Positions 885 to 19,217 of a stretch of 19,336 nucleotides of DNA are shown in pieces. Where the stretch lies: positions 1-19,336 of the forward strand of contig JAFZXG010000082.1 in assembly GCA_017616925.1 (NCBI GenBank), written 5' to 3'. Both the position numbers and the translations under genes were made by a program. Origin of the DNA: Clostridia bacterium (lineage in GTDB: Bacteria; Bacillota; Clostridia; Christensenellales; Borkfalkiaceae). Under the pieces are notes generated by a model. That model made no database searches. It worked only from the letters and a program-made list of their open reading frames with translations, and was not told where the DNA came from. Each line of letters begins with the position of its first letter. The stretch's first letter is position 1.

Positions 885-1652
885 ATGAAAAACGAAACGA
901 ACACCGTACCCAAAATAATACATTACGTCTGGCTGGGCGGGGGCGAGAAGAAACCCGAACACCTCGCGTTTATGGAAACATGGAAGAAAAACTTATCGGA
1001 TTACGAGATAAAAGAGTGGAACGAAAATAATTTCGACGTAAACTGCTGCGATTTTATCAAAGAGGCTTACGAAAAAAAGAAGTTCGCGTTCGTATCGGAT
1101 TACATAAGGCTTAAAGTCCTTTACGAGTACGGCGGCGTGTATCTCGATACCGACGTGGAAGTGTTAAAGTCCTTCGACGACTTTTTATCGTTCGATTCTG
1201 TTCTCGGATTTGAAAACTCGGCGTATCTTTCCATGGGTACGATAATCTCTAAACCCAAACAAAAGTGGCTTAAAGAACATCTCGATTATTACGACCGTTC
1301 GCATTTTATCAACGGAAATAAACTCGACACCGTGCCGAATACGGTAAAAATAACGGCTTTTCTCAACAAAAAATTCGGCTTAAAGATGAAAGAAAGCAGG
1401 CAGACTTTAGACGACGGAATAGAGATATTCCCATGCGAATATTTTTCGCCCAAGGACTTTACGACGGGTAAGACGAAAATCACCGAAAACACCTATTCGG
1501 TACACAGATACGAAGGCTCGTGGACGGGCGGGAAAGGATTCCTTTTTAAGACGTTGCGGGTGATAAGGTATATATTCGGTAAAAGGATATTCGCTTATTT
1601 TACGGGATTGCATATGAGAAAAGAAGCGAAAAGGTTAGGTAAGGAATTTTAA
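885..1652 (+). CDS. Glycosyltransferase family 32-like (OCH1/capsular sugar transferase) protein
   Basis: The 255-residue protein opens with VPKIIHYVWLGG, the typical N-terminus of the DXD-containing sugar-transferase family (Gly_transf_sug, GT32). It carries FAFVSDYIRLKVLYEYGG followed by YLDTDVEVL; D88 and D90 form the DXD motif that binds metal and nucleotide-sugar. Such enzymes act in the cytosol on capsule, exopolysaccharide or glycolipid glycans. A start at 855 is possible by reading frame, but it lies between the -35 and -10 boxes of the promoter. The ATG at 885 is preceded by AAAGAGG and gives the standard N-terminus. The next gene starts 38 bp downstream and is probably co-transcribed. 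Donor and acceptor are unknown. Confidence 0.88.
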   Translation: MKNETNTVPKIIHYVWLGGGEKKPEHLAFMETWKKNLSDYEIKEWNENNFDVNCCDFIKEAYEKKKFAFVSDYIRLKVLYEYGGVYLDTDVEVLKSFDDFLSFDSVLGFENSAYLSMGTIISKPKQKWLKEHLDYYDRSHFINGNKLDTVPNTVKITAFLNKKFGLKMKESRQTLDDGIEIFPCEYFSPKDFTTGKTKITENTYSVHRYEGSWTGGKGFLFKTLRVIRYIFGKRIFAYFTGLHMRKEAKRLGKEF

Positions 1653-1690: not shown

Positions 1691-3556
1691 ATGTATAAAT
1701 TATCGGTTCCATTTATGCTTTCGCAGGTAGAAAGGTACGGGGCGGACACCTTTATTTCCGAATTACGTAAAATAGACGCGGATATAGTATTTCTTGCGCT
1801 GGGATCTTACGAAACGGACGAAGAAAAAAGCAACGCCGTTTTCGACAGTCTTAAAAAATACGTCCCCGTATTTAAAAAAGCGGGCTTTACGGTCGGAGTT
1901 TGGGTATGGTCGTTTATGATAGTAAACGACCAAAAATACACGCATATAACTTCGCCTAACGGCGCGGTTTCCAAAAACCAAGTGTGTCCGTCGGACGAAA
2001 ATTTTTGCAAGTTCGCCGCAGAATATATAAAAAATATAGCAATGTCAAAGCCCGATATGATAATGTATGACGATGATTATCGCTACGGGTTTATAGATTG
2101 CGGGCTTGGATGCGCCTGTAAAAACCACCGCGCTTATATGAGTGAGATTTTAGGCGAAGATCTGTCTGACAAAGATCTCGGTAAACTTATATTCGGCGGA
2201 AAAGCGAATAAATACAGGAGTGCTTATCTTAAAGCAAACGGGCATTTTTTAAGAGAATTCGCCAAAACGGCGAGAGCTGCGGTAGACGATGTTGATCCCG
2301 ATATACGTCTCGGTCTTTGCGCTTGCATGAGTACGTGGGACTTCGACGGGGTGTCGGCTGCGGAACTTTCGCGTATACTTGCGGGGAACACCAAGCCGTT
2401 TTTAAGACTTATCGGCGCGCCGTACTGGGCGCCGAGTATTGCGTGGGGCAACAGATTGCAGGACGTTATAGAACTCGAACGTATGGAAAGTTCGTGGTGC
2501 GGGGAAGGTATCGAGATCTTCGCCGAAGGCGACACCTATCCTCGTCCGCGGTTTAGGTGTCCCGCGAATATGCTCGAAGGTTTCGATATGGCGTTAAGGG
2601 CGTCGGGATCTTTGAACGGGATCCATAAATACACTTTTGATTATTACGCCGATCCCGCTTACGAAAAGGGTTATGATATAAAGCATATAAAAAACGGAAA
2701 GATATACCGCAATATAGAAAAATATTTTTCGGATAAGACGCCGGTCGGCGTCCGCGTTTACGAGTATATAAATAAATTCGAGAACATGACCGTTCCGCCC
2801 TACTACGACGGTAAAGACGAAGTACAGAACACCTTTTTCTCGCCTGCCGCAAGGCTGATGGCAGCTCAAACGATACCTACGATTTACGAAGGTTTGGGAA
2901 CTGTGGGCGTCGCGTTCGGAGAAAACGCGAAGTATCTCGACGACGCCGCTTTAAGTAACGGTCTTATAATTGACTTGCCTGCCGCGGTAAACCTGATGGA
3001 ACGCGGGATAGACGTCGGATTAAAGGAAGTCGGCGGCGATATTGCGGTTTCGGAAGAGTATTTCCCGAACGAAAATCGGTACGTGGGGCTTTTCGGCTGT
3101 CCCGCAAAAGAGATGACCGTTAAAGACGAGATAAAAACGGACAGTTTCTTTATTTCCGAAGACAAACGGTATATAGGTTCTTATTTTTACGAAAATAAAG
3201 ACGGGCGGAAATTTCTGGTATTTGCGTTTGACGGGTATAACGCCGGTAATCACGCGTTCAAGCAGTATGCCCGCGGCGAACAGATAGAAAGGTTTATAAG
3301 GTTTACGGGTAAAAGGTTGCCTGCGTCTATGCGCGGCAATCCCGACTGCTATATGCTCTGCAAAGAGAACGCAAACGGTATCGCAGTATGGATAGGGAAT
3401 TTCTTTGCCGACGAGTGTCTTAACACCGCCGTCGTTTTAGACGGAGAGTTTAAGGACGTGAAGTTTATAAACTGCAACGGAAAATTAAGCGGGAATAAAG
3501 TGGTGATAGACGATATTGCGCCGTTTGCATCGGTAGGTTTTATCGTCGAAAAGTAA
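1691..3556 (+). CDS. Uncharacterised TIM-barrel glycoside hydrolase-like protein
   Basis: A 621-residue soluble protein without a signal peptide, starting after a good AAGGAG site. The first ~350 residues read like a (beta/alpha)8 barrel: an early strand with DIVFLALGSY, then GFTVGVWVWSF, then a conserved-looking MIMYDDDYRYGF (D127-D129). Next is a compact Cys/His cluster, C137-x3-C141-x-C143-x2-H146, which could bind zinc; GH42 enzymes have a comparable Cys cluster. Acidic residues in GIEIFAEGDTYPRPR could be catalytic. The middle resembles a Rossmann/glutamine-amidotransferase-like domain and the end a small beta-domain, an order also found in GH42 beta-galactosidases. I cannot assign a family or substrate with certainty. 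It follows the GT32 gene and ends before a bidirectional terminator. Confidence 0.6.
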   Translation: MYKLSVPFMLSQVERYGADTFISELRKIDADIVFLALGSYETDEEKSNAVFDSLKKYVPVFKKAGFTVGVWVWSFMIVNDQKYTHITSPNGAVSKNQVCPSDENFCKFAAEYIKNIAMSKPDMIMYDDDYRYGFIDCGLGCACKNHRAYMSEILGEDLSDKDLGKLIFGGKANKYRSAYLKANGHFLREFAKTARAAVDDVDPDIRLGLCACMSTWDFDGVSAAELSRILAGNTKPFLRLIGAPYWAPSIAWGNRLQDVIELERMESSWCGEGIEIFAEGDTYPRPRFRCPANMLEGFDMALRASGSLNGIHKYTFDYYADPAYEKGYDIKHIKNGKIYRNIEKYFSDKTPVGVRVYEYINKFENMTVPPYYDGKDEVQNTFFSPAARLMAAQTIPTIYEGLGTVGVAFGENAKYLDDAALSNGLIIDLPAAVNLMERGIDVGLKEVGGDIAVSEEYFPNENRYVGLFGCPAKEMTVKDEIKTDSFFISEDKRYIGSYFYENKDGRKFLVFAFDGYNAGNHAFKQYARGEQIERFIRFTGKRLPASMRGNPDCYMLCKENANGIAVWIGNFFADECLNTAVVLDGEFKDVKFINCNGKLSGNKVVIDDIAPFASVGFIVEK

Positions 3557-3774: not shown

Positions 3775-3936
3775 CTAGTAGATCTTTACGTTGTTTAACG
3801 CGTTTTCGCGTACCGTTCTCACGATTTGTCCGTTTTCGTAACGGTTTATAACATTAGTTACGGAAGAGTTCGTAAGATAACCTTTAATAAGTACCGATTG
3901 CGTCTTGTTCGCGATATCGTTTGATATCGCGACGCT
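3775..3936 (-). pseudogene. C-terminal remnant of a second GH28-like beta-helix gene
   Basis: The minus strand, reading straight on from the epimerase stop codon (3937-3939) and in the same frame, encodes 53 residues before a TAG at 3775-3777. By my hand alignment they match the last 53 residues (359-411) of the beta-helix protein encoded at 6693-7928 without gaps, 43 of 53 identical. Examples are the shared stretches KGYLTNS, TNVINRYE and RTVRENALNNVKI. No start codon, ribosome site or upstream part is present. It is therefore the 3' scar of a paralogous copy whose 5' part has been lost or replaced by the epimerase gene. The frame is still intact, which suggests a fairly recent event. Confidence 0.9.
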
Positions 3937-5151
3937 TTACAGTAATTCGGGCGCGTCGCCCGAAAACAGTGACGATAAAATATTTTCGCATAGGATAAGA
4001 CAGCGGGGTAAATGATACGGACCTTTCCACATCGAGCCTTTCTGCGTGTGAGAAACGCTTCCGTCACGATGAAGATAGCCGTACCACTCGCCGTATTTTC
4101 GGTCGGCAAAATGCGAAAAAGCGTATTCGTGCGTTTTCTCGAACAGCTTAAAATATTTTTCGTCGCCCGTAAGTTTATAGGCAAGTATCGTCGCTATCAG
4201 ACACTCGTTATGTACCCACCACAATTTCATATCGTATTCTAATTGTTCGCAGGGTTTATCGAAAGCGTCCGTAAAATAATAAATTCCGCCGTATTCTTTA
4301 TCCCAACCTTTTTCGATCGACCAGTCGAGAATATTCAGCGCTTTTTTCAAAAGTTCTTTATCGCCGACGGTACTTGCGTAATTCATTAAAAACCACGAAT
4401 TTTCTATCGAGTGTCCGGGGTTTATCGTTCTTCCCGCGTGGGTGTCCGAAATGCCGCCGTCTTTCGGTACGTTTTCCAAAACGCATTTGAGATCTTCTTT
4501 ATAATGGAGACCTAACATGTCGTTTACGATCTCTCTTATTATTCTGTCGTAACGGTCTTTTTTCCCGCTTATTCTCATAAGTGTCTGCGCGGAACTTATA
4601 AGCACCATAGGGTAGGCGTTGGAACGCAGATCGCGTACCGAAGTGTTTTCTTTGGGCGTTATCTTAAACGGATCGGCCGACGGATCTTTATAGATAGAGT
4701 ACATAAAGTCGAAATATTTTTCGGCGATATAGAGATCGTTAGGATCTTTCGTCTGCAAGTAGTATTCCGCGAATCCAACGACGAGAAAACTTTCGGAAAA
4801 GAAATATCTTCTTTTTCTTAACGGTAAGCCTTCTCTCGTAACGGTAAAAAACAATCTTCCGTCACCGTCGATACAATGCTTTTTTATAAACTCCGCACCC
4901 GATTCGGCAGCTTTCAGCCATAGTTCTTTTTTGCCGTAACTATTGCATAATTTAGAAAAAGTCCAGAGGCATCTGCCTTGGAACCAAACGCTTTTGTCGT
5001 TATTGTAAGATCTTCCGTATCTATCTACACTCGTAATAAATCCGCCGTACTCTCTATCGATAAGGTCTGATCTTTCCCAGAAAGGAACGACGTCATTTAA
5101 GAGATAGTCCTTATAAAAATCACGGTATCGTAAAATTTTGTTTTTGTTCAT
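3937..5151 (-). CDS. N-acylglucosamine 2-epimerase (AGE) family sugar epimerase/isomerase
   Basis: The 404-residue length is normal for the AGE/RnBP/cellobiose-2-epimerase family, an (alpha/alpha)6 barrel acting on the C2 position of sugars in the cytosol. Family landmarks are present in order: W-FQGR with R60, the NPGHSIE motif with catalytic His H247, WWVHNE with H314, and KGPYHLPR with the second catalytic His H380. The substrate could be a free hexose, an N-acyl hexosamine or a disaccharide; the sequence does not decide. It starts after an AAGGAAA site 27 bp below the glycosidase-like gene and is the last intact gene of the operon. The stop is followed in frame by a beta-helix remnant. 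The C-terminus itself looks complete, so the neighbouring rearrangement did not visibly damage it. Confidence 0.9.
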   Translation of the reverse strand: MNKNKILRYRDFYKDYLLNDVVPFWERSDLIDREYGGFITSVDRYGRSYNNDKSVWFQGRCLWTFSKLCNSYGKKELWLKAAESGAEFIKKHCIDGDGRLFFTVTREGLPLRKRRYFFSESFLVVGFAEYYLQTKDPNDLYIAEKYFDFMYSIYKDPSADPFKITPKENTSVRDLRSNAYPMVLISSAQTLMRISGKKDRYDRIIREIVNDMLGLHYKEDLKCVLENVPKDGGISDTHAGRTINPGHSIENSWFLMNYASTVGDKELLKKALNILDWSIEKGWDKEYGGIYYFTDAFDKPCEQLEYDMKLWWVHNECLIATILAYKLTGDEKYFKLFEKTHEYAFSHFADRKYGEWYGYLHRDGSVSHTQKGSMWKGPYHLPRCLILCENILSSLFSGDAPELL

Positions 5152-5177
5152 AATCGGTTTTCCTTTTTTAAAGGCGG

Positions 5178-6665
5178 CTAAATATTCGCCGCCTTCACAC
5201 AGGGAAATTTTATAACTTCGTTAAGAATGTCTTTACCCGACTTTTCTGAGTCCCAAAGGGTTTCGGCGTAAATAGCGGCGGGTAACGGGATCTCTTTTTC
5301 AAACATACCGTCTTCGATGAGTCCCTGCACATTTACGTCTTTTGCGTTTTCCGTAATAAGTTTTACCGTTTCCCGCGCTTTTTCGCAATTATATATCCAG
5401 TTTGCCTGACGCAATTTCCAGATCTTGCGTCTTTCGCTTAACCTGTTATCTATAAACGAGTCGCTTTTTTCACCTAAAACGATATTTTCGGGCTGATGAG
5501 AAAACGTCGTCCAGTCAAGCCCCGACATACCCTTTAAGACGAATCCGATCTTTTCGTTTTCTCCGCGCAACGTACATATTTTTTTCAGGAAATCCGCGTC
5601 GATCGGGATATCCGAAACCTGCTTTTCGGTTTTTTGATCCGCGATATTGTTTATAAACGGGAACGCTTCGCCGCAATTCTCCCAGACGATCGTTATTCTT
5701 TCGTCAACTTGCGCGATATATTCGAGTTTGTTTTTTACCGAAGTGGCGTGAAGTCCGAACTGTAATTTTAAGTCGGGGTATTTTTCAAGCAACTTTCGTC
5801 CCGTCTTATTGACGAGATCGACCACCGCCGCCGCGATAAGTCTGCCGTCGATATATTCGTCGCCGAGTTCGGTACACGACTGGAAGTATATCCCGTCGCC
5901 TTTACGGTGCGCGTATTCTATTTCAAACCTGTTTATTATGTTTTCTTTCAGTTCTTCTATGCCTTTTTCGGTCATACGCATCGAGGTTTTGCAGTCGGTA
6001 TCCCATCCCCAAGCGAATCCCCATATAACTTTTATCCCGAGACTGTGGGCGTAATCGACGATATCGTCCGCGTTTATCGGAGCGTAATCGTTCCATATAA
6101 CGATTTCGTTAAGTTTCAGTAGGACCATATTGTCGAAAAACGATCTGTAATCGTATATAACGTGTCCCCAGGTCCATATCGCGCGTTCTTTTACGGACGG
6201 GGCGGAACTGTAACTCCATTTGGGCGCTTTATTTTTAAAAGGGCTTTCAAAGTAGATACGGTCCTGCAGATCGCCGATCCCCGCCTTATAGATCAGATCC
6301 CCGCAATACTTGTTGATAAAATCGACCGCGCCGTACAGAACGCCTTTTTCGTCGTAACCGAGAATCGCGATGGACTGTTTGTCTTTATTGAACCGACTTT
6401 CGTCCACGCTGATGGAAAAAGCCTGTTCTTCGGGTATAATCTTTAAATTTCCGTTATCGGCGTATTCTTTTAAGTATTTATTGTCCGTTATCGTACCGAC
6501 GATTATAAGATTATTGTCATATAACGTCTTACGGTCTATATCGTTTGCCCTATAAAAAGGCAGATAGTTTTTGTAAAGATCAGAAACCGTCGCGTTGATA
6601 AGATTCAACGCCTTTTTTTCCAAACCTTCGTATTTACCGTACACGACGATCCACTTGTTTTCCAT
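5178..6665 (-). CDS. GH67/GH20-like glycosidase (alpha-glucuronidase-like fold), cytosolic
   Basis: A 495-residue protein. Residues ~1-125 form a small alpha/beta domain ending in AILGYDEKGVLYGAVDFINKY, the hallmark of the N-terminal domain shared by GH20 hexosaminidases and GH67 alpha-glucuronidases. A TIM barrel follows: W-x-N-D-Y-A-P, then IKVIWGFAWGWDTDC, then GIYFQSCTELGDE with E266 as candidate acid, and IVWENCGEAFPF with E329 as candidate base or nucleophile. No signal peptide. I cannot separate GH67 from related uncharacterised families. An upstream ATG at 6677 would add four residues, but its AAAGG abuts the codon with no spacing; the ATG at 6665 has AAAGGA 11 nt upstream and is preferred. 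The gene lies between the beta-helix and epimerase genes. Confidence 0.7.
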   Translation of the reverse strand: MENKWIVVYGKYEGLEKKALNLINATVSDLYKNYLPFYRANDIDRKTLYDNNLIIVGTITDNKYLKEYADNGNLKIIPEEQAFSISVDESRFNKDKQSIAILGYDEKGVLYGAVDFINKYCGDLIYKAGIGDLQDRIYFESPFKNKAPKWSYSSAPSVKERAIWTWGHVIYDYRSFFDNMVLLKLNEIVIWNDYAPINADDIVDYAHSLGIKVIWGFAWGWDTDCKTSMRMTEKGIEELKENIINRFEIEYAHRKGDGIYFQSCTELGDEYIDGRLIAAAVVDLVNKTGRKLLEKYPDLKLQFGLHATSVKNKLEYIAQVDERITIVWENCGEAFPFINNIADQKTEKQVSDIPIDADFLKKICTLRGENEKIGFVLKGMSGLDWTTFSHQPENIVLGEKSDSFIDNRLSERRKIWKLRQANWIYNCEKARETVKLITENAKDVNVQGLIEDGMFEKEIPLPAAIYAETLWDSEKSGKDILNEVIKFPCVKAANI

Positions 6666-6692
6666 ACCCGTTTTCATCCTTTATAAAAAAGT

Positions 6693-7928
6693 TTAATCGA
6701 TCTTTACATTATTTAACGCGTTTTCGCGTACAGTTCTTATTATTTGTCCGCTTTCATAGCGGTTTATTACGTTGGTGATAGTCGAATTTGTAAGATACCC
6801 TTTTACGAACACGGATTGCGCCTTGTTTGCGATAACGTTCGATATCGCAACGTTTTTCGCGGAATCGGGAAGGACTCTTCCGTAAGACGCGTCCGCTTCT
6901 CCGATAAGTATTCCGCCGCCGACTTCGTCTTCCGACGTGTCTATTACGTTGTCGATAATAACGTTTTCTATCGTGGACTCGACGGGGAGTAAGCGGATCA
7001 CCCAGCACCAGTAAGATTTTGCGATAACGTTTTTAATGATAACGTTCTTTATTCCGCGTTCCCTTCTTTCCCAGTCGCTGTGCATAACGTGCGTAGAATA
7101 CCCGCCGCTGAACACACAGTTTTTCGCCGCGATGGCGGTAAGCGCGATCACGTCGTCGCCCGTTTGACCGGTTATATCCGAAATAATAAGATCGTTGCAA
7201 CCGTTTCTTAAGTCTATTCCGTCCTGATTTTCGATATTTGATTTTACGCCGTCGATGAATTTATAGAGTCTGGAATCGAAATTTATCTTTTCGATACTGC
7301 CGTGGCGGCATGCTTCCAAAGAAATTCCCCAACAGTGCGAATCTTTTATCGAAACGTTCTTTATCGAAAAATACTCTACGTTCGCAAACAGGATGCCTAT
7401 ATTGCGCCAGTCGCCGCTTTTGTTTTCGCCTTCCTTATCGAAGTCCGTTCCGTAAGAGTGGTTGTGAAAATTGCCGCGCGCCACTTTTCCGCACGCCTTT
7501 TCTTCGTCGGATATCCAACTGCCGAAAGACAAAAGGTCTTTCTCGTCGTGGGGGCAGGGGACGCACAAAAGTTTACCCGAGTCCCCCGTAGATCTCGGAT
7601 GATCCGCGCCTTCGAGTATCGAAACTCCTTCGCCGATTATGTGAATATTCGTTATTTTCTCGGGATCGTTTTCGTTTAGACCGCAGTTTGCCGAACGGAA
7701 AAAGTTATCTCTGCATCTATCGGACAGTTTGATTTTACAGTTTTTAAGTATTACCGTCGTGTCCGAAGGCAGTAGAATCGCGTTGTCGATAAGCCAGAAA
7801 TCCCGTTCGGGTTCGGTTTTATTTTGGCGCGGTGGTATTACGACGATCCCGTCTTTATCTCTGCCCGCGATCGCTTTATTTATGATTTCATCGTCGGTTT
7901 TCCCGAAAAACTCGTTTACGTTTACCAT
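6693..7928 (-). CDS. GH28-like right-handed beta-helix (polygalacturonase-fold) protein, cytosolic
   Basis: A 411-residue protein rich in short repeated strands such as IKNVIIKNVIAKS and IENVIIDNVID, typical of a parallel beta-helix. Polygalacturonase (GH28) landmarks are recognisable: ENQDGIDL (N234, D236), TGDDVIAL (D258, D259), a His near 280-283 (THVMHSD) and VIRLL with R312. These correspond loosely to the NTD, DD, H and RIK motifs. GH28 enzymes cleave alpha-galacturonosyl or related links. With no signal peptide this one would act inside the cell on imported oligomers, as an exo-enzyme. A GGAGG site precedes the start. The last 53 residues are duplicated as a remnant at 3775-3936. The catalytic assignment is inferred from motif resemblance. 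Confidence 0.8.
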   Translation of the reverse strand: MVNVNEFFGKTDDEIINKAIAGRDKDGIVVIPPRQNKTEPERDFWLIDNAILLPSDTTVILKNCKIKLSDRCRDNFFRSANCGLNENDPEKITNIHIIGEGVSILEGADHPRSTGDSGKLLCVPCPHDEKDLLSFGSWISDEEKACGKVARGNFHNHSYGTDFDKEGENKSGDWRNIGILFANVEYFSIKNVSIKDSHCWGISLEACRHGSIEKINFDSRLYKFIDGVKSNIENQDGIDLRNGCNDLIISDITGQTGDDVIALTAIAAKNCVFSGGYSTHVMHSDWERRERGIKNVIIKNVIAKSYWCWVIRLLPVESTIENVIIDNVIDTSEDEVGGGILIGEADASYGRVLPDSAKNVAISNVIANKAQSVFVKGYLTNSTITNVINRYESGQIIRTVRENALNNVKID

Positions 7929-7954
7929 TTTCGCTTTTCCTCCAATTATTTATC

Positions 7955-9298
7955 TTATTCGGTACGGATACCGTTCATCTTGCAATATTCGGTAAGGATC
8001 TTTACGTTGTCGCCGTAAGAGATTATATAGTGCTGTCCTAACACCTTGTTTGCGAAATCTTCGGTGTCGTCAAGTTCTATTTTAAGTCCTGGGAGTTGGG
8101 GCGCGGGTTTATCCCAGCCGCACTCTTCCCAAGTCTCCGGCGTTTTGCCTACGCCCTTTACGACGTGCATGGTGAATTTTCCGTTAAGGCAAGCGAGACG
8201 GCACATGGTCAGTACTCCCTGTTTTGCCTTGGATACGTTTAATAATCCTTGCGAAAGTTCCCCGAACGCCGCGGGAAGTATGGTCGTTTCACCGTCAATT
8301 ATCTCTTTCGGGATATAGTCGGGAACGCCCGCTAACACTCCGTCGTTAAAGTATTCGTAAAACTCTAAATACGCGCCTATTTGTCCCGTAATCCCTTTTA
8401 CGATGACCTGCGTTATATTGCCCATACAGTCGTTTTCGGGGATAGTGCAAAGACCGTCTTCGGCAAGCAGGGTAAATATAGGCGCGGGCGGAAATCCCAA
8501 CAGTTTTTTGAATCCGTCAACGTCTTTAAGAGAGATCGCCGCGTACTTTCTCTCGTCTGCGATCTGCCTGATCGCAAGATAGTATTTTGCCGCGCTTTCC
8601 ACCGCGTTTTCGTCGGGCGTCTTAAGGAATTTCCACTTCTTTATTCTCGCTATCACCTTCTCTGTCTCTTTTGCGGTAAGTTTATTTGCCCTTTGTACCA
8701 CTTCAAGCATTTCGAAACACTCTATCTCTATACCGAAGTCGCGTTTTACGGCAAGCCCGTCGAACTGAGTTCCGTAAAGTTGCATATCGCGGTAGCCCAT
8801 TTGACCGATCTTCGTCTTTTTTAACTTGTTTTTTACCGCTGCGGCGTTGCAGTAAGAGACGACTTCTTCTACTTTTGACGGCGACTTTACCACGTCGTAA
8901 ACGTACTTAAAAGTATATCCCGCAGACTCCAACGCGATCCGTGCCGCACTCGTTCCCGCCTGATCCGCGGTAGTGACGAGATGTCCGTCTTCGTACCAGC
9001 CGCACAGTCCCCATAAAACCGTAGGTTTATGTTTAAACTCTTCGGCGACTTTCATTATGGCGTGGGTGGGTATCCAGCCCGCGACGCAAAGTACCATCGC
9101 GTCGAAATCCTTACCCTTAAAGTATTCTACCGCGTCGTTTATGTAAGTTTCTTCGTAATCGTCGCGTATGGGGTAGAAGGGGAAAACTTCCGCTCCTGTT
9201 TTTATTAAATCTTCGCACGCTTTTTTGCACTTTCTTTCGATCACTTCTATCGGGGTGTTTACTTCCCCGAATCCCGCAAAACCGATTTTTACCGACAT
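7955..9298 (-). CDS. L-fucose/L-arabinose isomerase-like protein
   Basis: A 447-residue protein beginning MSVKIGFAGFGEVNTPIEVI. The N-terminal ~150 residues form alternating strands and helices (DAMVLCVAGWIPTHAIM, KPTVLWGLCGWYEDGHLVTTADQAG) like the first domain of the FucI/AraA superfamily. The C-terminal part includes GDNVKILTEYC. FucI/AraA enzymes interconvert aldoses and ketoses with Mn2+ in the cytosol, but many distant members have unknown substrates, and this one is clearly divergent. The frame stays open 31 codons further upstream into the MFS gene; the start at 9298 is preferred because AAGGAG lies just upstream and it gives the expected N-terminus. It is separated by 26 bp from each neighbouring gene. 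Confidence 0.75.
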   Translation of the reverse strand: MSVKIGFAGFGEVNTPIEVIERKCKKACEDLIKTGAEVFPFYPIRDDYEETYINDAVEYFKGKDFDAMVLCVAGWIPTHAIMKVAEEFKHKPTVLWGLCGWYEDGHLVTTADQAGTSAARIALESAGYTFKYVYDVVKSPSKVEEVVSYCNAAAVKNKLKKTKIGQMGYRDMQLYGTQFDGLAVKRDFGIEIECFEMLEVVQRANKLTAKETEKVIARIKKWKFLKTPDENAVESAAKYYLAIRQIADERKYAAISLKDVDGFKKLLGFPPAPIFTLLAEDGLCTIPENDCMGNITQVIVKGITGQIGAYLEFYEYFNDGVLAGVPDYIPKEIIDGETTILPAAFGELSQGLLNVSKAKQGVLTMCRLACLNGKFTMHVVKGVGKTPETWEECGWDKPAPQLPGLKIELDDTEDFANKVLGQHYIISYGDNVKILTEYCKMNGIRTE

Positions 9299-9324
9299 CT
9301 TTTTTTCTCCTTTTTTATATATTT

Positions 9325-10578
9325 CTATTTCGTTTTTAACGTTTTGGTTTTCCTCTGATAATAAAGGTCTTCTGCAAAAAACACCGAACAAAGCGTAAGT
9401 ACCAACAGCGTGATAGAGAATAACACGAAAAATCCAGTATGCCAGTCGTTTCCGCTTAAGTCTAGAATAAGGGCTATCATAAAAGGCGACGCGGCTGCCG
9501 ACGCGCTTGCGCTTGCGTTTATATCGGCGGACGTTAAACCGTAATTCACGTAATTTTTAATATGCAGCGGAACCAAAACGCCGAAGGTGTTGTTGAGTAG
9601 CCGCAAGAATATTCCGATTGTTACGATCACCGCAATGGTAAGAATAACATTAAGTCCGTAAACAAAGCACAGTAAAAGACTTATTCCCGTTACGACGGCA
9701 GCCGACAGAAAAATGACCAAAAAATCGTTCTTGATCCTGTTGCAGAAAAATTCGGATAGGACGGGACCTAAATACGCAACGGTGGGGAAGAGCACCGTGA
9801 TAAGCGTTGCCATGGAGTCCGCAAGACCGAAATTGCTTTTTAAAATAGTCGGCATCCAGTTTGCAAAGCCGTAGTAAAGAAAACTTGAGAAGAAAACAGA
9901 GATCAGCGACAGGACAAACAACGGTTTTGCAGAAGGTCTTTCGGCAGTATATACCCTTTTTTTCAAAGGTATACCGTTTTCGTCGTCAACGGGTTTTAAG
10001 TCCGACTTTTCCATTCTCGTTATCGTAAAGAACATATAGAGAGTCGTAACGAGAAACGCCGTTCCCAGCGTGATAAAAGTTATACGCCAGTTGCCGAGAT
10101 GGATAGACAGCGAAGACAGCCCGAACGAAAGCGCGCTGCCCACGGAAAACGCCGCGCTTAAAAACAGTAAAGTTTTATCCATGGTTTTTCGGGACAGATG
10201 TTTGTTTAAGGTAACTATCGAACCGCACCACACCGAGCCGTGCATTATTCCGTTAAGAGCGAGTACGGAACATATATACCACATGGGCGAATAGAAAAAT
10301 ATGCTTAAAAACGACAATCCCGAAATAACGAACGTTACCATCATATAACGCTTAACGTTTATTTTTGAAAAGATCGGTGCAAGAATGACCTGTATTATCG
10401 CGTAAAAGGAATAGTAGAGAGTTATGGGCAGACTTGCTATAACGTTCGGCACGTCGTATTCGTCTTTTATCGCCACCATGGACGCCGAATACGATATTTT
10501 CATACACATAGACAGCATATACGCAAGCCAGCACGACAGTATAAGCCCGAATGTGATGCGTTTTTCTCTTTTAGTCAT
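9325..10578 (-). CDS. Major facilitator superfamily transporter, probably sugar or organic-anion uptake
   Basis: A 417-residue integral membrane protein with about 12 hydrophobic segments in two halves joined by a charged central loop (EKSDLKPVDDENGIPLKKR). That is normal MFS architecture. The N-terminal segment (FGLILSCWLAYMLSMCMKISYSASM) and general look recall the ACS/OPA branches, which carry sugar acids, sugar phosphates or organic anions; this placement is tentative. It is the only importer candidate in the operon and so may bring in the substrate of the surrounding enzymes. The start at 10578 is preferred over a longer frame from 10644: AAAGGAA lies upstream and overlaps the stop region of the deacetylase gene 5 bp away, indicating translational coupling. 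Confidence 0.85.
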   Translation of the reverse strand: MTKREKRITFGLILSCWLAYMLSMCMKISYSASMVAIKDEYDVPNVIASLPITLYYSFYAIIQVILAPIFSKINVKRYMMVTFVISGLSFLSIFFYSPMWYICSVLALNGIMHGSVWCGSIVTLNKHLSRKTMDKTLLFLSAAFSVGSALSFGLSSLSIHLGNWRITFITLGTAFLVTTLYMFFTITRMEKSDLKPVDDENGIPLKKRVYTAERPSAKPLFVLSLISVFFSSFLYYGFANWMPTILKSNFGLADSMATLITVLFPTVAYLGPVLSEFFCNRIKNDFLVIFLSAAVVTGISLLLCFVYGLNVILTIAVIVTIGIFLRLLNNTFGVLVPLHIKNYVNYGLTSADINASASASAAASPFMIALILDLSGNDWHTGFFVLFSITLLVLTLCSVFFAEDLYYQRKTKTLKTK

Positions 10579-10583
10579 ATTGC

Positions 10584-11408
10584 TTATTCCTTTATTGCGG
10601 TTACCTTTCCCGCTTTTACCAAAACGTTTTTGCCGTGATAACAAAGATACACGTCGGTATCGGTGGGGTTTTTAATTATTTTGCCGTCGACCGAATATTC
10701 CAGACGTTCGAACGCCTTTACGTAATCGTAAACTTCGCCGTTCGTGCAGTACCATATATCGTCGCGGTTGCCGACTTTCTTTGCAAAGTTCTCGATTATC
10801 TCCCAGTTGTCGCTATCGTTGAACTCGTAACTATGTCCCCAAAGGTAGAACAGTAAAGGTTCGTTATTCATATAAAAATCGGCTTTTTTGTAGTTTAAAA
10901 ACATTTCCGTCAGATCGGTAAGGTTTGGTGCGGCATGGCGGCAGGTGGGGGAAAGTCTCAACCAGTCGGTCGGTATCTTAAAACCGTTGGAACTTTCGAC
11001 CGTCCTCGCATACTTTACGCCGCAGTTTTTGAGTATTTCCACGACGGTATCGTTATAAGTACCGTACGCGTAAGCCATACCTTTAACGATCCTGCCGAAC
11101 TGTTTTTCAAGATTTTCCCTGTCAGTTATTATTTCGCGTGTCGCTACTTCGGGACTTACTTCCGTAAGCGAAAGGTGTTTCGCGCCGTGTACCGCTACTT
11201 CGTGCGGGGAATCAAGGTAGAGTTCGGTCGCCTCTTCTTTGGAGAGCCTTCTGTGTTCGGAATATAATTCCGAGTTAAGATTAAACGTGCATTTTAACCC
11301 GTATTTATCTAAAACACTTATAAGTTTTTTATCGAAAACCGTGCCGTCGTCGTAACTTAGCGTTACCGCTTTCAACTTAAAGTCGGGAAATCTTAAAAAT
11401 TTATACAT
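10584..11408 (-). CDS. Polysaccharide deacetylase (NodB-homology, CE4-type) protein, cytosolic
   Basis: A 274-residue protein with the CE4 motifs in order: LSYDDG (motif 1, D20-D21), HGAKH (motif 2, H74 and H78 as metal ligands), YAYGTYND (motif 3, about 113-120) and LFYLWGHSYEF (motif 5, H192). CE4 enzymes remove N- or O-acetyl groups from sugars with a divalent metal. There is no signal peptide or membrane anchor, unlike enzymes that act on the cell wall, so an imported acetylated sugar is the more likely substrate. The ribosome site is weak (AGCAGGCG upstream of the ATG). The gene follows the SGNH esterase by 36 bp, and the two may be paired deacylases. Confidence 0.87.
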   Translation of the reverse strand: MYKFLRFPDFKLKAVTLSYDDGTVFDKKLISVLDKYGLKCTFNLNSELYSEHRRLSKEEATELYLDSPHEVAVHGAKHLSLTEVSPEVATREIITDRENLEKQFGRIVKGMAYAYGTYNDTVVEILKNCGVKYARTVESSNGFKIPTDWLRLSPTCRHAAPNLTDLTEMFLNYKKADFYMNNEPLLFYLWGHSYEFNDSDNWEIIENFAKKVGNRDDIWYCTNGEVYDYVKAFERLEYSVDGKIIKNPTDTDVYLCYHGKNVLVKAGKVTAIKE

Positions 11409-11444
11409 ATACTAAACGCCTGCTATTCGTTATTTTTATTTACT

Positions 11445-12170
11445 TTATTTTCCTAACATCGTTTTCACGAGTTCGTAAGCAAATAAATAGTGCATATCTT
11501 TATCGGGGTGATTCAACTTGTTGGCGAGAAGTTCGGTCACGTTCACACCGCAATCCGCCATTTCCTTCCATATCGCGTAGCAATCGCAGACGACGACGCC
11601 TTTTTCTTCCGCGACCGACTTGGCGGCGGAAACGTATTCGTCCATAACGCCGCTACTCATCCTTTCGGCAAAGTTCTCGGCGAGTTCTTTAAAAAACTCA
11701 CTCGTGAGTTTCGGGCTTACGTTATAGTTCATGGTATTCGGCGTCATAAAAATACACTCCGCGCCCGTCGCCTTTATTCTGCCGAATATTTCGTTTAAAT
11801 GTTTTTTAAAATCCTTAATGCCGTCAAGCCCGCCGCCGCTGTCGTTTAAGCCGAAACATACGACGACGAGATCGGGGGAATACGATAAAACGTCCCTTTC
11901 TACACGGTTTAATCCCGTAAACGCGCTGCCGCCGCTTATTCCCGCGTTTATCACGGCGAAAGGCACGGACGGGTACAGTTTATTTAAGATTCTCTTAACT
12001 TTTTCGCAATACGCCCACTCCGCTATAAAGTCCGTTTGTATTCCGCGCGGCTCGGGTTCATAACACCCGAAACAGCCCTGCGTTACACTGTCGCCCAAAA
12101 ATGCGACGGTTATAGGCTTACGCGAGTAAAGATCTTTTTGTTTTTCCTTTATTTTGTCGATTATTTTCAC
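11445..12170 (-). CDS. SGNH/GDSL-family hydrolase (probable carbohydrate esterase)
   Basis: A 241-residue protein with the SGNH blocks: FLGDSVTQG (block I, nucleophile S28), NAGISGGSA (block II, G77), GLND (block III, N109) and a C-terminal NHPDKDMH (about 220-227, the Asp-His pair). This family includes acetyl-xylan, pectin-acetyl and other carbohydrate esterases. There is no signal peptide. It uses a GTG start, which overlaps the MATE stop as GTGA (12167-12170), with a very strong site AAGGAGGAG (12179-12187) 8 nt upstream, a coupled arrangement. Its place beside a CE4-type deacetylase supports removal of acyl groups from a sugar, which is inference. Confidence 0.88.
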   Translation of the reverse strand: MKIIDKIKEKQKDLYSRKPITVAFLGDSVTQGCFGCYEPEPRGIQTDFIAEWAYCEKVKRILNKLYPSVPFAVINAGISGGSAFTGLNRVERDVLSYSPDLVVVCFGLNDSGGGLDGIKDFKKHLNEIFGRIKATGAECIFMTPNTMNYNVSPKLTSEFFKELAENFAERMSSGVMDEYVSAAKSVAEEKGVVVCDCYAIWKEMADCGVNVTELLANKLNHPDKDMHYLFAYELVKTMLGK

Positions 12171-13540
12171 GCTTTTATCTCCTCCTTCGTTTTATAAAAA
12201 CGGAACATTTTACCCAAGAAGATATTCTGAACGAATACCGTTATAGTCCAGGACATCGGATAGGTTATGAAAAGTACGAGAAAACTTTCGGGGAATATTG
12301 CGGTCATAACCATAATGAAAATTATTCTTAAAACGCACCCGCCGAATATTGAAATTATCATCGACAGTACCGATTTTCCCATGCCGCGCATAACGTACGC
12401 GAACACGCCCATAAAGTTACATATAAAGTAAGTCGTCGCCATAACGGATAATCTCGTCTGTGCGTATGGCAGTATCTCGGCGTCGTTTCTTATGGCGAGA
12501 ACGAGCGGCTCGTCAAAAACAAGGATAAGTCCGCCGAGCACGAGTCCGTAACACATTATAAGGATCAGCGCTTTACGTATCGTTTCCTTTACGCGTTTTA
12601 CGTTGCCCGCGCCCATATTCTGACTCGTAAAGGACAGAGTGGAAATGGCGATCGCTTCGCCGCCGTCCAGAAGGAATTTATCTATCTCCTGTCCGACCGA
12701 ATTGCCCGCGGTGGCGACGCTGCCGAAAGAGTTTATATTCGCCTGTATAAAGACGTTCGAGATGCTGAAAAACACTTTTTGAAGACCGCTCGGCACGCCC
12801 ACCAACAAAACGTCTTTCAACTCTTTTTTATAGAATTTCAGGTGACTGAATTTCAGTCTGGCGTAGCCCGTGCTTTTAAGCATAACGACAAAACAGCATA
12901 CTGCCGATACGAAATTCGACGCGACCGTAGCGATCGCTACGCCTTCCACGTCCAGCCCTACGACCGTTACGAAAAATATGTTCAGAACGACGTTGAGTAT
13001 TCCGCCAGCAACGAGAAAGATAAGCGGTCTGAACGTGTCGCCGACAGCCCTTAATATCGCCGCGGAAAAATTATAGAGCATAATTATCGGCATACCGAGA
13101 GAATAGATTTTAAGATATGTCGTCGCCATATCGAGAAGATCGTCTTTACAGTTCATAAAGTAGAGGAAACTTCTCGCGCCGAAAAACCCTATTAAAAGCA
13201 GAACAACGCCCGAAACCACGCTTAAAAGTACGGAGCATCCGACGTATTTTTCCGCACTGTCCTTATCTCCCGCGCCTTTCGCTTTGGCGACGACGACGTT
13301 TGCGCCGAGAGAAAGCCCTATAAAGAACCCTATAAAAAGATTTATAAGAGTACCCGTGGCACCGACGGCGCCTACCGCGACGGTCGCCCTTTCGGGTGCC
13401 GCAAACCTGCCCAAAACCACGGTGTCCGCCGTGTTGAACAATAGTTGCAGTATATTTACTCCGAGTATGGGTAAAGAAAAGATAATAAGTTCTTTAAGTA
13501 TCGAACCCTTCGTAAGATCGAGTTCGTGATTATCGGTCAT
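12167..13540 (-). CDS. MATE family (DinF/NorM-type) multidrug or metabolite exporter
   Basis: A 457-residue membrane protein with about 12 hydrophobic segments. It opens with a short acidic tail and GSILKELIIFSLPILGVNILQLLFNTADTVVLG, the standard MATE N-terminus, and repeats the pattern in the second half (VGVPSGLQKVFFSISNVFIQ). MATE proteins export cationic compounds or metabolites using Na+ or H+. Its role inside a sugar-processing operon is unclear; it may export a toxic intermediate or inhibitor, or exchange a product. It starts 13 bp after the ceramidase-like gene with TAAGGAA overlapping that stop region, and ends in a 4-bp overlap with the esterase gene. Confidence 0.92.
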   Translation of the reverse strand: MTDNHELDLTKGSILKELIIFSLPILGVNILQLLFNTADTVVLGRFAAPERATVAVGAVGATGTLINLFIGFFIGLSLGANVVVAKAKGAGDKDSAEKYVGCSVLLSVVSGVVLLLIGFFGARSFLYFMNCKDDLLDMATTYLKIYSLGMPIIMLYNFSAAILRAVGDTFRPLIFLVAGGILNVVLNIFFVTVVGLDVEGVAIATVASNFVSAVCCFVVMLKSTGYARLKFSHLKFYKKELKDVLLVGVPSGLQKVFFSISNVFIQANINSFGSVATAGNSVGQEIDKFLLDGGEAIAISTLSFTSQNMGAGNVKRVKETIRKALILIMCYGLVLGGLILVFDEPLVLAIRNDAEILPYAQTRLSVMATTYFICNFMGVFAYVMRGMGKSVLSMIISIFGGCVLRIIFIMVMTAIFPESFLVLFITYPMSWTITVFVQNIFLGKMFRFYKTKEEIKA

Positions 13541-13553
13541 TTGTGATTCCTTA

Positions 13554-15041
13554 TTATAAGAACATACCGTTTATATGCGTTAAGGTTTCACGGACTAATA
13601 TGTCTCCGCCTTCGTGTCCCGTAACGCCGCTAGAAACGTACGCCGAATAGTGACTGCCTTTTTCCGCTTTCTCGGTGGGAAGATACCCGTCCGCTCCGCA
13701 TGAAAGTTGAATAAGGAAAGTCTGTTTCGCTTTACTTCTCGCCCTTATCTTGTTCCCGTAGTTTAAGAACAGTTCAAAAGGATTCGTCGCTATCGCTATA
13801 TCTCCGAACCTTACTATATGTATCTCTTCGGTAAAGGTATTGACTTTTTGCTGGAAATCGTATCTTGCTATTGTCCCCGCATAAATATGCATCTTCGCAT
13901 TGTCGTCGAAGTTCATAGCCCTGCCTTTGTTCTTTTCGATATAGTTTTCTATCTTTTCGACCGCGTCGTTATATTCCGCTATCGTTACGCGCCTTAAGGG
14001 CAGTACCATATCGAGCGTTTCGTGTTTCAATATCCCGTCGTTCTTTAATTCTTTTTTATCGAGTTCTTCGTATACGGATATGAGTTCGTTCGATATTCTT
14101 CTGCCTACTACCTTTAACCCCGATACGTCGAACATAGAAGGATCGGCCCTGCGTTCTATATAATTTTCTCTGTGGATATTCGGATCGTTAATAGGCGTTT
14201 CGGGGTTTACCCAACGGATTAAATCTCTCGGACACAAATCCCCCGCAGCCGAACAAAGTCCTAATACGAATACGTTTTTGCCGAAATGCTTTCTTAAATT
14301 CTCCTTTACCTTGCCCCAGTAGTCCGAAGAAATGAAACTTCTGTGTTCTACCACCTGCGAAGGACAGGCGATATTAGCGATAACGCCGTTTAACTCTTTA
14401 TTCTTATCGAAAGTATAAATAATTTCTATACCGCTGTCGTTGCCCGCTTCGAGTTCTTCGAAGTTAGCAAGATTTACGTCGCCCCACATTTTAGCCGAAC
14501 CGTCGTCGTAACAGACTCTTCTGTTCATACCGACCGCGGCGCGCCCGAACGCGTTTGCATAATAACCTTCGGTACGGTTTTCCCACGCCTTACAGATCGC
14601 TTCGGTTATTTTATCGACGAGGAAATTAAGCGCAACGTCGGGATCGAGCATCTTTTCGCTTGATACGAGCGGTTTATATTCCATACCTTCGGGAAGCATT
14701 TGTTTAAGGACGTCAAGCGTAGAACCCGAATCCGTCCCTTTCCTTGTATAGACGTAAGAAGTGTGCGTATGTATGGCGCTGGTTATTATCTTGTCTTTTA
14801 GTTCGGGATATTTCGCCTCTACTTTCTCTTTTACGAGTTTGTGAAGATTATTGCCTACGGCGACGAGATCGCAGGACGCTATCACCATTTTATCGTTACC
14901 GCTTTCCAAAGCAAAAGCGGTAATCGTTATTCTGCTTTCCACTTCGTCGGTAATTCTTTCAAAAAACTGACCTGCAAGCCCTATTTTAGTACCTTTTTCG
15001 GGCGTGATATCTACTTCCGCCCAACCCATTTTTAATGACAT
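13554..15041 (-). CDS. Neutral/alkaline ceramidase-fold hydrolase, substrate unknown
   Basis: A 495-residue protein beginning with GWAEVDITP, the signature start of the neutral/alkaline non-lysosomal ceramidase N-terminal domain. Zinc-ligand candidates are visible in SAIHTHTS (H91, H93) and VVEHRSFISSDYWG (H233). The family's GDxSP nucleophile motif is present as AAGDLCP, with cysteine (C270) in place of serine. The end has SCGADGYLPT and a GHEGGDILVRE segment, also family-like. There is no signal peptide, whereas true bacterial ceramidases are secreted. Together these suggest a relative repurposed for a small cytosolic amide, ester or sugar substrate. First gene of the operon; AAGGAG 10 nt upstream supports this ATG over the one four codons later. 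Confidence 0.8.
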   Translation of the reverse strand: MSLKMGWAEVDITPEKGTKIGLAGQFFERITDEVESRITITAFALESGNDKMVIASCDLVAVGNNLHKLVKEKVEAKYPELKDKIITSAIHTHTSYVYTRKGTDSGSTLDVLKQMLPEGMEYKPLVSSEKMLDPDVALNFLVDKITEAICKAWENRTEGYYANAFGRAAVGMNRRVCYDDGSAKMWGDVNLANFEELEAGNDSGIEIIYTFDKNKELNGVIANIACPSQVVEHRSFISSDYWGKVKENLRKHFGKNVFVLGLCSAAGDLCPRDLIRWVNPETPINDPNIHRENYIERRADPSMFDVSGLKVVGRRISNELISVYEELDKKELKNDGILKHETLDMVLPLRRVTIAEYNDAVEKIENYIEKNKGRAMNFDDNAKMHIYAGTIARYDFQQKVNTFTEEIHIVRFGDIAIATNPFELFLNYGNKIRARSKAKQTFLIQLSCGADGYLPTEKAEKGSHYSAYVSSGVTGHEGGDILVRETLTHINGMFL

Positions 15042-15076: not shown

Positions 15077-15105
15077 ATTATAAATCTTTTCCATTTTTTT
15101 GACAA
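15077..15105 (-). promoter_or_regulatory. Sigma-A promoter of the glycan-processing operon
   Basis: Minus-strand TTGTCA (15100-15105) and TATAAT (15077-15082) with an exact 17-bp spacer, about 35 bp upstream of the first gene. Just upstream of the -35 box, touching it, is a short inverted repeat, ACTA-N4-TAGT (15105-15116), that could be a regulator site; it is too short to claim strongly. Confidence 0.87.
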
Positions 15106-18049: not shown

Positions 18050-18061
18050 CGGTTAACCGTT
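18048..18061. promoter_or_regulatory. Perfect 14-bp palindrome at the cstA -35 box (candidate operator)
   Basis: AACGGTTAACCGTT is a perfect palindrome that overlaps the last two bases of the cstA -35 box and also the stop codon of the ECF S-component gene (18053-18055). Protein bound here would block RNA polymerase. No U-tract follows on either strand, so it is not a terminator. The binding factor is unknown. Confidence 0.65.
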
Positions 18062-18589
18062 ATTTTGATTGTATATTTTCGCAATCGAAAGGACTTTGAC
18101 GAGCGGCAGGAACAGTATCCCCACCGAAACCGCCGCGCAGACCGACTGCGTTAGCATAAAGGGGAGAGAACCGTAAAAATAAAGCCGTGCGGCGTCAAAC
18201 GTAAACCCGAAAAAGAGCGGGGTGATTATATCGTCCAAAAGCGAGAACGCGGCGGTGAACGCCGCGGAAAGAACGATTACGGCGGCGAATTTTAAAAAAC
18301 CGATATCCGTCCCGAATTTTTTTCCCAAAAACCCGAAAAACAGTGCGAAAAGGGAATAATAGATAAGATACAGAATAATTACCGTCGGGTAAAACCCGAA
18401 AATAAAACAGCGTAGGAGCGAAAAACATACGGCGACCGTAATTCCCGCTTTTATCCCCGCGCAGTAGCAAAAGGCAAGAAAAAACACCGTAACGAGTTCT
18501 ATTCCGCCAACGCCCGATAAGGCGAACTGCACGGCGAGAAGAAGCGCGGTATATAGCGCGGTAACGGCGATAAACTTCGTCGGTTTCAT
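18053..18589 (-). CDS. ECF transporter S component, probably for cobalamin
   Basis: A 178-residue, very hydrophobic protein with about five to six membrane segments. The start MKPTKFIAVTALYTALLLAVQFALSGVGGIELVTVF is typical of substrate-binding S components of energy-coupling-factor transporters. It has no ATPase or T component beside it, so it would belong to group II and share an EcfAA'T module encoded elsewhere. It starts 2 bp after the DUF4430 gene with no ribosome site of its own, which implies coupling. The shared cobalamin riboswitch points to vitamin B12 or a precursor as the substrate; that is inferred from regulation and context, not from the protein. Confidence 0.8.
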   Translation of the reverse strand: MKPTKFIAVTALYTALLLAVQFALSGVGGIELVTVFFLAFCYCAGIKAGITVAVCFSLLRCFIFGFYPTVIILYLIYYSLFALFFGFLGKKFGTDIGFLKFAAVIVLSAAFTAAFSLLDDIITPLFFGFTFDAARLYFYGSLPFMLTQSVCAAVSVGILFLPLVKVLSIAKIYNQNNG

Positions 18590-18591
18590 AC

Positions 18592-19017
18592 TTAATAGGG
18601 TGTCGTCGCCGTGTAAACCCAGATATACGAACAGCCCGCCTTAATAACGAGATCGGACGCGCCTAAAGCCGCCGAAACATATATTTTATCTTTGTACGAG
18701 ATTTCTCCCCAAGCGGAGTTGGAATTTTCTTCGTCGTCGGTATAAAGCATCCAGTATTTTTCGTTAGTGTTCGCTATACCGTTTACGGAATTGATAAAAT
18801 CACCGTAGGCGGAAGTTTCAGAAGTATAATCCAAAGTCCCCTGCGATCTTGTGTAATCCATAAACTCGATAAGTTTTTTACCCGCGTAATCTGCCGTGGG
18901 TTTAAGAACGATAAACTCGTCCGTATCTTTGATCACCGTCGGTTCTTTTTTGGAACAGGCAAACGTTAACGTACAGACGGAAACCACAAGCAACAAAATA
19001 GCGATAACTTTTTTCAT
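18592..19017 (-). CDS. DUF4430 (transcobalamin-like) surface lipoprotein, probable B12 binder
   Basis: A 141-residue lipoprotein: a basic start, a hydrophobic stretch, then the lipobox LTFAC with C21 as the lipidated residue, so it sits on the outer face of the membrane. Residues ~45-138 match the DUF4430 fold, which is related to the C-terminal beta-domain of transcobalamin and intrinsic factor: GDFINSVNGIANTNEKYWMLYTDD, then SAWGEISYKDKIYVSAALGASDLVIKAGCSYIWVY. AGGAG (19024-19028) directly follows the terminator of the cobalamin riboswitch. Likely role: capture corrinoid outside the cell and pass it to the S component encoded 2 bp downstream. Binding itself is inferred. Confidence 0.87.
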   Translation of the reverse strand: MKKVIAILLLVVSVCTLTFACSKKEPTVIKDTDEFIVLKPTADYAGKKLIEFMDYTRSQGTLDYTSETSAYGDFINSVNGIANTNEKYWMLYTDDEENSNSAWGEISYKDKIYVSAALGASDLVIKAGCSYIWVYTATTPY

Positions 19018-19055: not shown

Positions 19056-19217
19056 AAAGTACGGTTATAAAAGATCGTTCTTTTCTCCTTTCGCCCGAGA
19101 AACGATCGCTTGCGTAAGGCAGGCTATCGGGCTATACCGTAATGGCCGTTGCGACGGATTTTCACCGTTCTTCCCCTGCTTTCCTTGCGCGGATATCCGC
19201 GTAAGACTCAAACGCCT
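19056..19217 (-). ncRNA. Cobalamin riboswitch
   Basis: The minus-strand leader contains the cobalamin-aptamer core: GGGGAAG, GGTGAAAATCCG (19155-19166), CGC, then GCCATTACGGT (19136-19146) and a CCTGCC segment that can pair with GCAGG before the core. A near-perfect accessory hairpin contains the palindrome CGCGGATATCCGCG (19188-19201). The aptamer is followed by a Rho-independent terminator and the DUF4430/ECF-S genes, as expected for an OFF switch that stops B12 uptake when cobalamin is plentiful. Ends are approximate. Confidence 0.9.

Follow-up and report, generated by a model that had tools for sequence, protein, structure and literature searches.

A run of nine co-oriented genes in the genome of a gut-type clostridial bacterium raises the question whether a ceramidase-like protein, two glycosidase-like proteins, deacylase-type enzymes, two sugar isomerases or epimerases and two transporters can serve one purpose, and if so which. 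The genes lie in a stretch of 19,336 nucleotides of a Clostridia bacterium (Christensenellales, Borkfalkiaceae; assembly GCA_017616925.1, contig JAFZXG010000082.1), hereafter the window, listed as contig 164 in a genome sequence that totals 906,790 bases and is 56% complete. In order of transcription they encode: CERa, a neutral-ceramidase-like protein; a MATE exporter; an SGNH/GDSL hydrolase (SGNH); a polysaccharide-deacetylase-type protein (CE4); an MFS importer; FucI, a FucI/AraA-like isomerase; a GH28-like protein; GHx, a glycosidase-like protein; and AGE, a member of the N-acylglucosamine 2-epimerase family. A further gene, HYD621, converges on them. We consider it rather probable that the operon encodes a predicted cytosolic catabolic pathway with an acylated or amide-linked glycoside as substrate. 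Relatives appear to co-control scattered counterparts of most of the operon genes, which points to a real, so far undescribed pathway; the gene set was not described in any title or abstract found among open-licence PubMed Central papers.

The conserved association of CERa and FucI

FucI was recovered in 13 of 151 genomes of the family and, with a FucI profile (A3), in 30 of 391 genomes and 20 of 222 genera of the class (own genome included in both cases). The loci that were read comprised 11 from the family (weak hits in G041 and G039 omitted) and 28 from the class (a partial hit in G458 and four weak second hits omitted), all found by FucI alone. CERa was encoded within six open reading frames (ORFs) of FucI in 28 of these 39 loci: all 11 of the family and 17 of the 28 of the class. 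Five extra family loci with both genes came from the CERa search; there the proximity (5/5) follows from the selection, and they were not counted as a test of linkage.

An FGGY kinase occurred within six ORFs in 4/11 family loci, 20/28 class loci and 4/5 of the CERa-found family loci. The neighbour counts are lower bounds, as several contigs end nearby; for the 16 family and 28 class loci, respectively, they amounted to: FGGY (8 and 20), LacI (6 and 4), M20 (6 and 1), DeoR (0 and 13), TPI-type (0 and 12), YjbQ (1 and 10), SIS (0 and 9) and MATE (1 and 4), with an FSA/TalC-type aldolase in 4 of the 28 class loci. The M20 amidohydrolase recurred in the clusters, as did a CapA relative, for which the top NCBIfam entry, a lasso-peptide epimerase, scored 222.2 (cut-off 700). 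At the level of whole genomes, 16 of the 17 tested contained a match to the FGGY kinase at E ≤ 1e-30 (best identity 43-100%). The detached kinases (seven of eight stretches read, L244 being too short) were accompanied by MFS, CapA and M20 (L243), MFS (L242, L245), YjbQ-SIS-TPI (L246) or TPI (L247-L249).

The core also varies. Three tandem CERa genes precede FGGY and FucI in L065 (3210-7739), a distant paralogue, CERb, is present in L162 and L164, and four CERa stretches (L076-L079) are without FucI. The CERa-FGGY-FucI clusters of four class loci (L205, L226, L227 and L228) additionally encode an aminotransferase and a dehydrogenase of the Gfo/Idh type, and their MATE is a different one; this setting hints at an amino-sugar or aminocyclitol as substrate.

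A LacI-type operator and its putative regulon in relatives

The palindrome ACGAAAnnnTTTCGT was found beside a LacI gene and before CERa, or before the operon that holds CERa, in four loci (L060, L068, L071 and L075). Searching for it in 20 genomes yielded 48 sites, as compared to 15 for the reversed control. All 48 were read in context. Half of the sites (24) are located at most 350 bp upstream of a counterpart of CERa, FucI, MATE, CE4, GH28-like or HYD621, or of M20 or LacI; two of them precede LacI only and two fall within called ORFs (a MATE ORF on contig 50 of G096 and a 92-aa ORF in G115). The exact 15-mer with AAG/CTT spacing occurred 13 times, 12 times about 30 to 120 bp before one of the listed genes and once within an ORF on contig 47 of G096. 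Of the former, two (in G115, and before the CERa operon of G159) had helped to define the motif; of the 11 exact sites that are independent of that definition, 10 fit the listed genes.

The sites within single genomes connect many of the functions found in the window. In G159, six exact sites precede an M20-MFS-CERa-FGGY-FucI operon, CE4 (55% identical to that of the window), a GH28-like gene (phmmer, 1.7e-35), two MATE genes and a HYD621 relative (phmmer, 1.7e-20). G089 has three, before a HYD621-like gene (6.4e-21), MATE and FucI-CERa, and a variant-spaced site just before its GH28-like gene (4.8e-25). The exact operator also precedes CERa in G160 and G161, and sites precede MATE genes in G159, G089, G156 and others. 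MATE is the likely target in L279 and L282 because the genes across from it in L279 encode a phage terminase and portal protein, the counterparts in L282 matching at 83% and 62%.

For comparison, the search was extended to 17 genus mates in which no CERa had been found. It gave 13 sites, against 7 for the reversed pattern, and a single one was of the exact type; none of the six that were read, the exact one included, adjoins a pathway gene, and neither does any of the five sites in the CERa-less genomes G072, G081 and G154. In total, 18 sites were found in 20 CERa-less genomes versus 43 in 16 CERa-bearing genomes (own genome excluded), with several genomes on both sides being incomplete.

A second operator group, with an AAC/GTT spacer, comprises 12 sites in 6 genomes (L290, L291, L295, L297, L298, L300, L302-L305 and L312), preceding LacI and MATE(-CapA-M20-MFS) genes (7), MFS (3) and metallo-beta-lactamase genes (2). 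The metallo-beta-lactamase was considered as a link between the GHx-AGE loci and this group and rejected, as the proteins show no significant match by BLAST.

On the basis of operator position and linkage we infer that the counterparts of CERa, FucI, CE4, MATE, GH28-like and HYD621 would make up one regulon in the relatives. The best reading of the window is that this scattered regulon has largely been gathered into one operon, with HYD621 beside it and the operator missing. Membership of MFS in the shared pathway is plausible, and SGNH, GHx and AGE look like additions. The common purpose that the sequence-only reading had assigned to all nine genes is thereby retained for CERa, FucI, MATE, CE4 and GH28-like, by virtue of the operator in genus mates and the class-wide association of CERa with FucI.

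Various observations weigh against this reading. The operator is absent from the window (2 hits at two mismatches, with 3.98 expected by chance) and from the whole of the own genome, where matches to the LacI gene of the relatives and to the kinase (the single miss among the 17) are lacking too, at 56% completeness; the regulon is therefore deduced from relatives. The 20 genomes that were searched had largely been picked for carrying CERa or FucI. The other 24 of the 48 sites adjoin none of the listed genes: 11 are internal to called ORFs, and the remaining 13 comprise 4 before MFS genes, 2 before metallo-beta-lactamase genes, 1 before a gene of the GH39 type, 2 before genes without a name and 4 that precede no called gene. 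In 11 of the 28 class loci no CERa was present within six ORFs of FucI, and an FGGY kinase as such says little because these kinases are common. The HYD621 relatives in the regulon are just 21-22% identical to HYD621, and the MFS of the window is just 24-28% identical to the MFS typical of CERa-FucI clusters. SGNH and the GHx-AGE pair share the likely co-transcription with the other genes and lack support by linkage; in G159, the locus of the GHx-AGE pair (L167) is devoid of exact matches to the operator. Finally, the full order of the nine genes did not recur in any locus that was read (L002-L018, L060-L079, L136-L173 and L204-L231). The sequence-only reading had staked itself on conservation of the order beyond close relatives, and as a conserved nine-gene unit the operon falls, though the linkage of CERa and FucI spans the class.

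Organization of the operon and its surroundings

All nine ORFs were confirmed, separated by gaps of 13, -4, 36, 5, 26, 26, 15 and 26 bp (Table 1). The tight spacing, the promoter-like site before and the terminator-like site after the genes make the single transcript that had been proposed likely; the window scan recovered no minus-strand terminator-like site in any gap within the run. Over the whole window the promoter-like hits were not above shuffles (27, shuffle mean 29.0) and the terminator-like hits were slightly in excess (35, mean 27.8, standard deviation 4.6), so both calls rest on position and quality. An imperfect TCGTTTTCCTGGTAAAACCGA repeat is present upstream of CERa. The claimed cytosolic location is supported for the seven soluble proteins by the lack of a strongly hydrophobic N-terminal stretch: the best 11-residue Kyte-Doolittle mean, a proxy for location rather than a signal-peptide predictor, ranges from 0.27 to 1.38, whereas the two transporters reach 2.08 and 2.65.

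Table 1. Features of the nine-gene operon and its flanks (window coordinates)
Feature	Position	Strand	Remarks
CERa, neutral-ceramidase-like, 495 aa	13554..15041	-	First gene; conserved core
MATE exporter, 457 aa	12167..13540	-	PF01554, 159 bits
SGNH/GDSL hydrolase, 241 aa	11445..12170	-	PF13472, 67.2 bits (gathering score 32.9)
CE4 polysaccharide-deacetylase-type, 274 aa	10584..11408	-	PF01522, 75.4 bits (gathering score 23.1)
MFS importer, 417 aa	9325..10578	-	PF07690, 100.9 bits
FucI, FucI/AraA-like aldose-ketose isomerase, 447 aa	7955..9298	-	Conserved core; start best at 9298
GH28-like protein, 411 aa	6693..7928	-	No Pfam match; one weak NCBIfam match (E 0.0012)
GHx, glycosidase-like, GH84/GH20/GH115/GH67 fold group, 499 aa	5178..6677	-	No Pfam or NCBIfam hit; fold-group match
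AGE, N-acylglucosamine 2-epimerase family, 404 aa	3937..5151	-	PF07221, 174.8 bits (gathering score 23.4)
Promoter-like site, TTGTCA-17-TATAAT	15077..15105	-	Sigma-70-like, 11/12 consensus matches; 35 bp before CERa
Terminator-like stem-loop	3672..3690	-	Overlapped by a plus-strand terminator-like stem-loop
C-terminal remnant of a second GH28-like gene, with stop	3781..3954	-	76-77% protein identity, about residues 353-410
HYD621, 621-aa protein	1691..3556	+	No Pfam match; converges on the operon

Five of the proteins exceed Pfam cut-offs (AGE, MFS, CE4, SGNH and MATE), whereas CERa and FucI stay below them. CERa scores 20.9 bits against PF04734 (gathering score 32.1), and its profile weakly matches human neutral ceramidase (4wgk, E 0.00097) in the N-terminal part. 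Residues H91, H93, D268, E423 and Y453 are invariant in 22 alignment rows; at what we take to be the zinc-site and catalytic positions of neutral ceramidase, the second zinc His falls on P227 of CERa, within an insignificant stretch of the alignment. A structure model from the single sequence was discarded as not usable (pLDDT 31.2). FucI scores 23.4 bits against PF02952, the L-fucose isomerase C-terminal domain (gathering score 29.3), and its best NCBIfam match is the sulfoquinovose isomerase SftI (65.4 bits). With AraA and FucI chains its profile gave E values of 0.0009 to 0.06, apart from one AraA chain at 0.96, and E288, D290, E312 and H423, invariant in 17 rows, were compared with Glu, Asp/Glu and His, presumably the metal ligands of the L-fucose/L-arabinose isomerase fold.

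MATE belongs to TIGR00797 (200.2 bits, cut-off 147.4), and in L071 a 68% identical MATE is placed between CERa and FucI. The top NCBIfam match of MFS is of the D-galactonate transporter type (48.6, cut-off 395). In searches of 101 genomes each, genomes with relatives were found (own genome included) for CE4 (41), SGNH (13), GH28-like (7) and GHx (4). We read 38 stretches around such matches (L136-L173), covering 4 of 7 other places of GH28-like, 11 of 12 of SGNH, all 3 of GHx and 20 of CE4 (18 of 40 other genomes); none contained CERa or FucI, and this includes all 11 SGNH places. CE4 relatives adjoin TPI-, YjbQ- and SIS-type genes in L159, L161 and L162, and FGGY in L170; a second recurrent CE4 setting, in L153, L155, L156, L160 and L165, has a KDPG-type aldolase and a 340-aa protein adjacent. 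The GH28-like protein gave no hit to PF00295 (gathering score 22.9) at E 0.01 and no usable match to solved-structure profiles; of its relatives, the one in G089 passes the Pfam GH28 threshold, and by locus the relative in L285 passes (27.3) and the one in L276 is without a hit.

The GHx profile matches alpha-glucuronidases of GH115 and GH67 with E values of 0.001 to 0.02, chiefly in the N-terminal part, and among the chains compared GH84 structures gave the best full-length alignment. E270 and E333 are invariant in 17 rows; their catalytic assignment is our assumption. Membership of GH84 was not adopted: the fold fits, and the Asp pair that we would expect seems by eye to be Gln-Ser. AGE scores 382.6 bits against the N-acyl-D-glucosamine 2-epimerase equivalog NF052547, below the curated 600. 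In 17 named loci with GHx relatives (16 of them in metagenome-assembled genomes with Clostridia, Clostridiales or Oscillospiraceae in the title, one in Lacticaseibacillus), AGE was adjacent in 7, and none of the remaining seven operon genes was found at E 1e-4, some contigs being short. The GHx-AGE pair of G159 sits apart from its CERa locus; in G209 the GHx ORF was not called and the neighbourhood (L169) is poorly read.

No usable match to solved-structure profiles was obtained for HYD621. A 33% identical relative lies three ORFs past FucI in L204. Directly before HYD621, a sugar glycosyltransferase with a DXD motif (PF04488) is encoded at 885-1652 (+), and the two may share a transcript as the gap is 38 bases. 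Upstream of the operon region, the window holds a CstA-type carbon starvation transporter (PF02554, 16495-17964, -) and an AdoCbl-II riboswitch (19113-19189, -; 43.2 bits, gathering score 36.5) that precedes two small minus-strand ORFs without a Pfam match (18592-19017 and 18053-18589), possibly a cobalamin uptake unit.

The proposed pathway and alternative explanations

In the predicted pathway, MFS would import the compound, which would be dismantled by the GH28-like protein, with HYD621 and GHx, and by the deacylase-type enzymes CE4, SGNH and CERa. FucI would convert the freed aldose to a ketose, an FGGY kinase, expected elsewhere on the chromosome, would phosphorylate it, and SIS-, TPI- and FSA-type enzymes would carry the phosphorylated sugar onward. 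MATE would export the released by-product, and AGE may recycle a second sugar freed by GHx. A more specific version is offered tentatively: a pathway with a patchy distribution over many families of the class, whose substrate would be an amide-linked conjugate. A hydrolase of the ceramidase fold would split off an aldose, which a new isomerase of the FucI type and an FGGY kinase would channel into sugar-phosphate metabolism, and MATE would expel the partner molecule, the LacI regulon having been collected into one operon here.

Another explanation is regarded as possible to a similar, limited degree: one transcript may hold two units, the CERa-MATE-CE4-FucI-GH28 pathway and an unrelated GHx-AGE cassette with SGNH, releasing hexosamine or uronide, that landed behind or within it. 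The occurrence of the GHx-AGE pair without the other seven genes (7 of the 17 loci) and its separate position in G159 agree with this, and recombination at the AGE end is suggested by the broken second GH28-like gene directly after AGE (126 of 158 bases identical). On the other hand, the nine genes are tightly spaced on a single strand, and additions to operons are often retained when their functions fit.

It is doubtful, though conceivable, that the genes chiefly serve to detoxify or scavenge an N-acyl or amide natural product of plants or bacteria, in which case MATE would be the main exit and the sugar part of secondary importance. The recurrence of MATE near CERa or behind the operator, the neighbouring M20 amidohydrolase and CapA relative with its lasso-peptide epimerase-type match, and the aminotransferase and Gfo/Idh genes in four class loci would suit such a role, whereas the isomerase-kinase-aldolase set indicates carbon use and just 5 of the 44 other loci have a MATE gene near FucI. 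The uronic acid that had been called probable, as part of pectin or glucuronoxylan oligomers, received no direct support and is unlikely: the GH115/GH67 matches of GHx, the GH28-like relatives and the KDPG-type aldolase beside CE4 relatives in five loci hint toward it, but the fold of GHx fits GH84/GH20 as well, with GH84 giving the best full-length alignment among the chains compared, and the recurrent partners are the FGGY kinase and TPI-, SIS- and YjbQ-type genes (uronate isomerase and KDG kinase were not searched for).

The catabolic pathway for an acylated or amide-linked glycoside remains the reading that we prefer. It would link a ceramidase-like clade with a sugar isomerase, with a sugar kinase and with an operator of defined sequence, and so open a clade at which annotation had stalled to tests of a concrete pathway. 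The regulon has a readable operator, and a single screen could be used to look for the substrate that unassigned proteins such as CERa, GHx and HYD621 would share. The window also illustrates how genes that are dispersed over the chromosome of relatives can be found assembled in one operon.

Comparison with known systems

The modelled GHx shares an alpha/beta domain plus barrel with the GH115/GH67 alpha-glucuronidases and GH84/GH20 hexosaminidases, but is 499 aa long and 9-16% identical in the matches listed. CERa resembles neutral ceramidase (PF04734; 4wgk, 2zws) in its invariant HxH motif, the aligned Glu of the PxE stretch and the weak N-terminal profile match. It differs in its length (495 aa versus chains of 646 and 688), its score under the Pfam cut-off, the lack of a hydrophobic N-terminus and the unaligned second zinc His.

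With the sulfoquinovose isomerase pathway (SftI, sulfo-SFT; PMC11968277) the system has the top NCBIfam match of its isomerase in common and, in some class loci, the FSA/TalC-type aldolase; the isomerase stays far below the cut-off of 700, however, and an FGGY kinase is present here. Sulfoquinovosidase genes were not noticed, in a survey with no search aimed at them. The LacI/DeoR-controlled isomerase-kinase operons for sugars of the fucose, arabinose and xylose type share a FucI/AraA-type isomerase, an FGGY kinase, an MFS importer and, in the relatives, a LacI or DeoR regulator. What sets the system described here apart from them is the ceramidase-like gene in its core, the partners of the SIS, TPI and YjbQ type, the MATE exporter, the added deacylase-type enzymes and an isomerase that scores under the family cut-offs.

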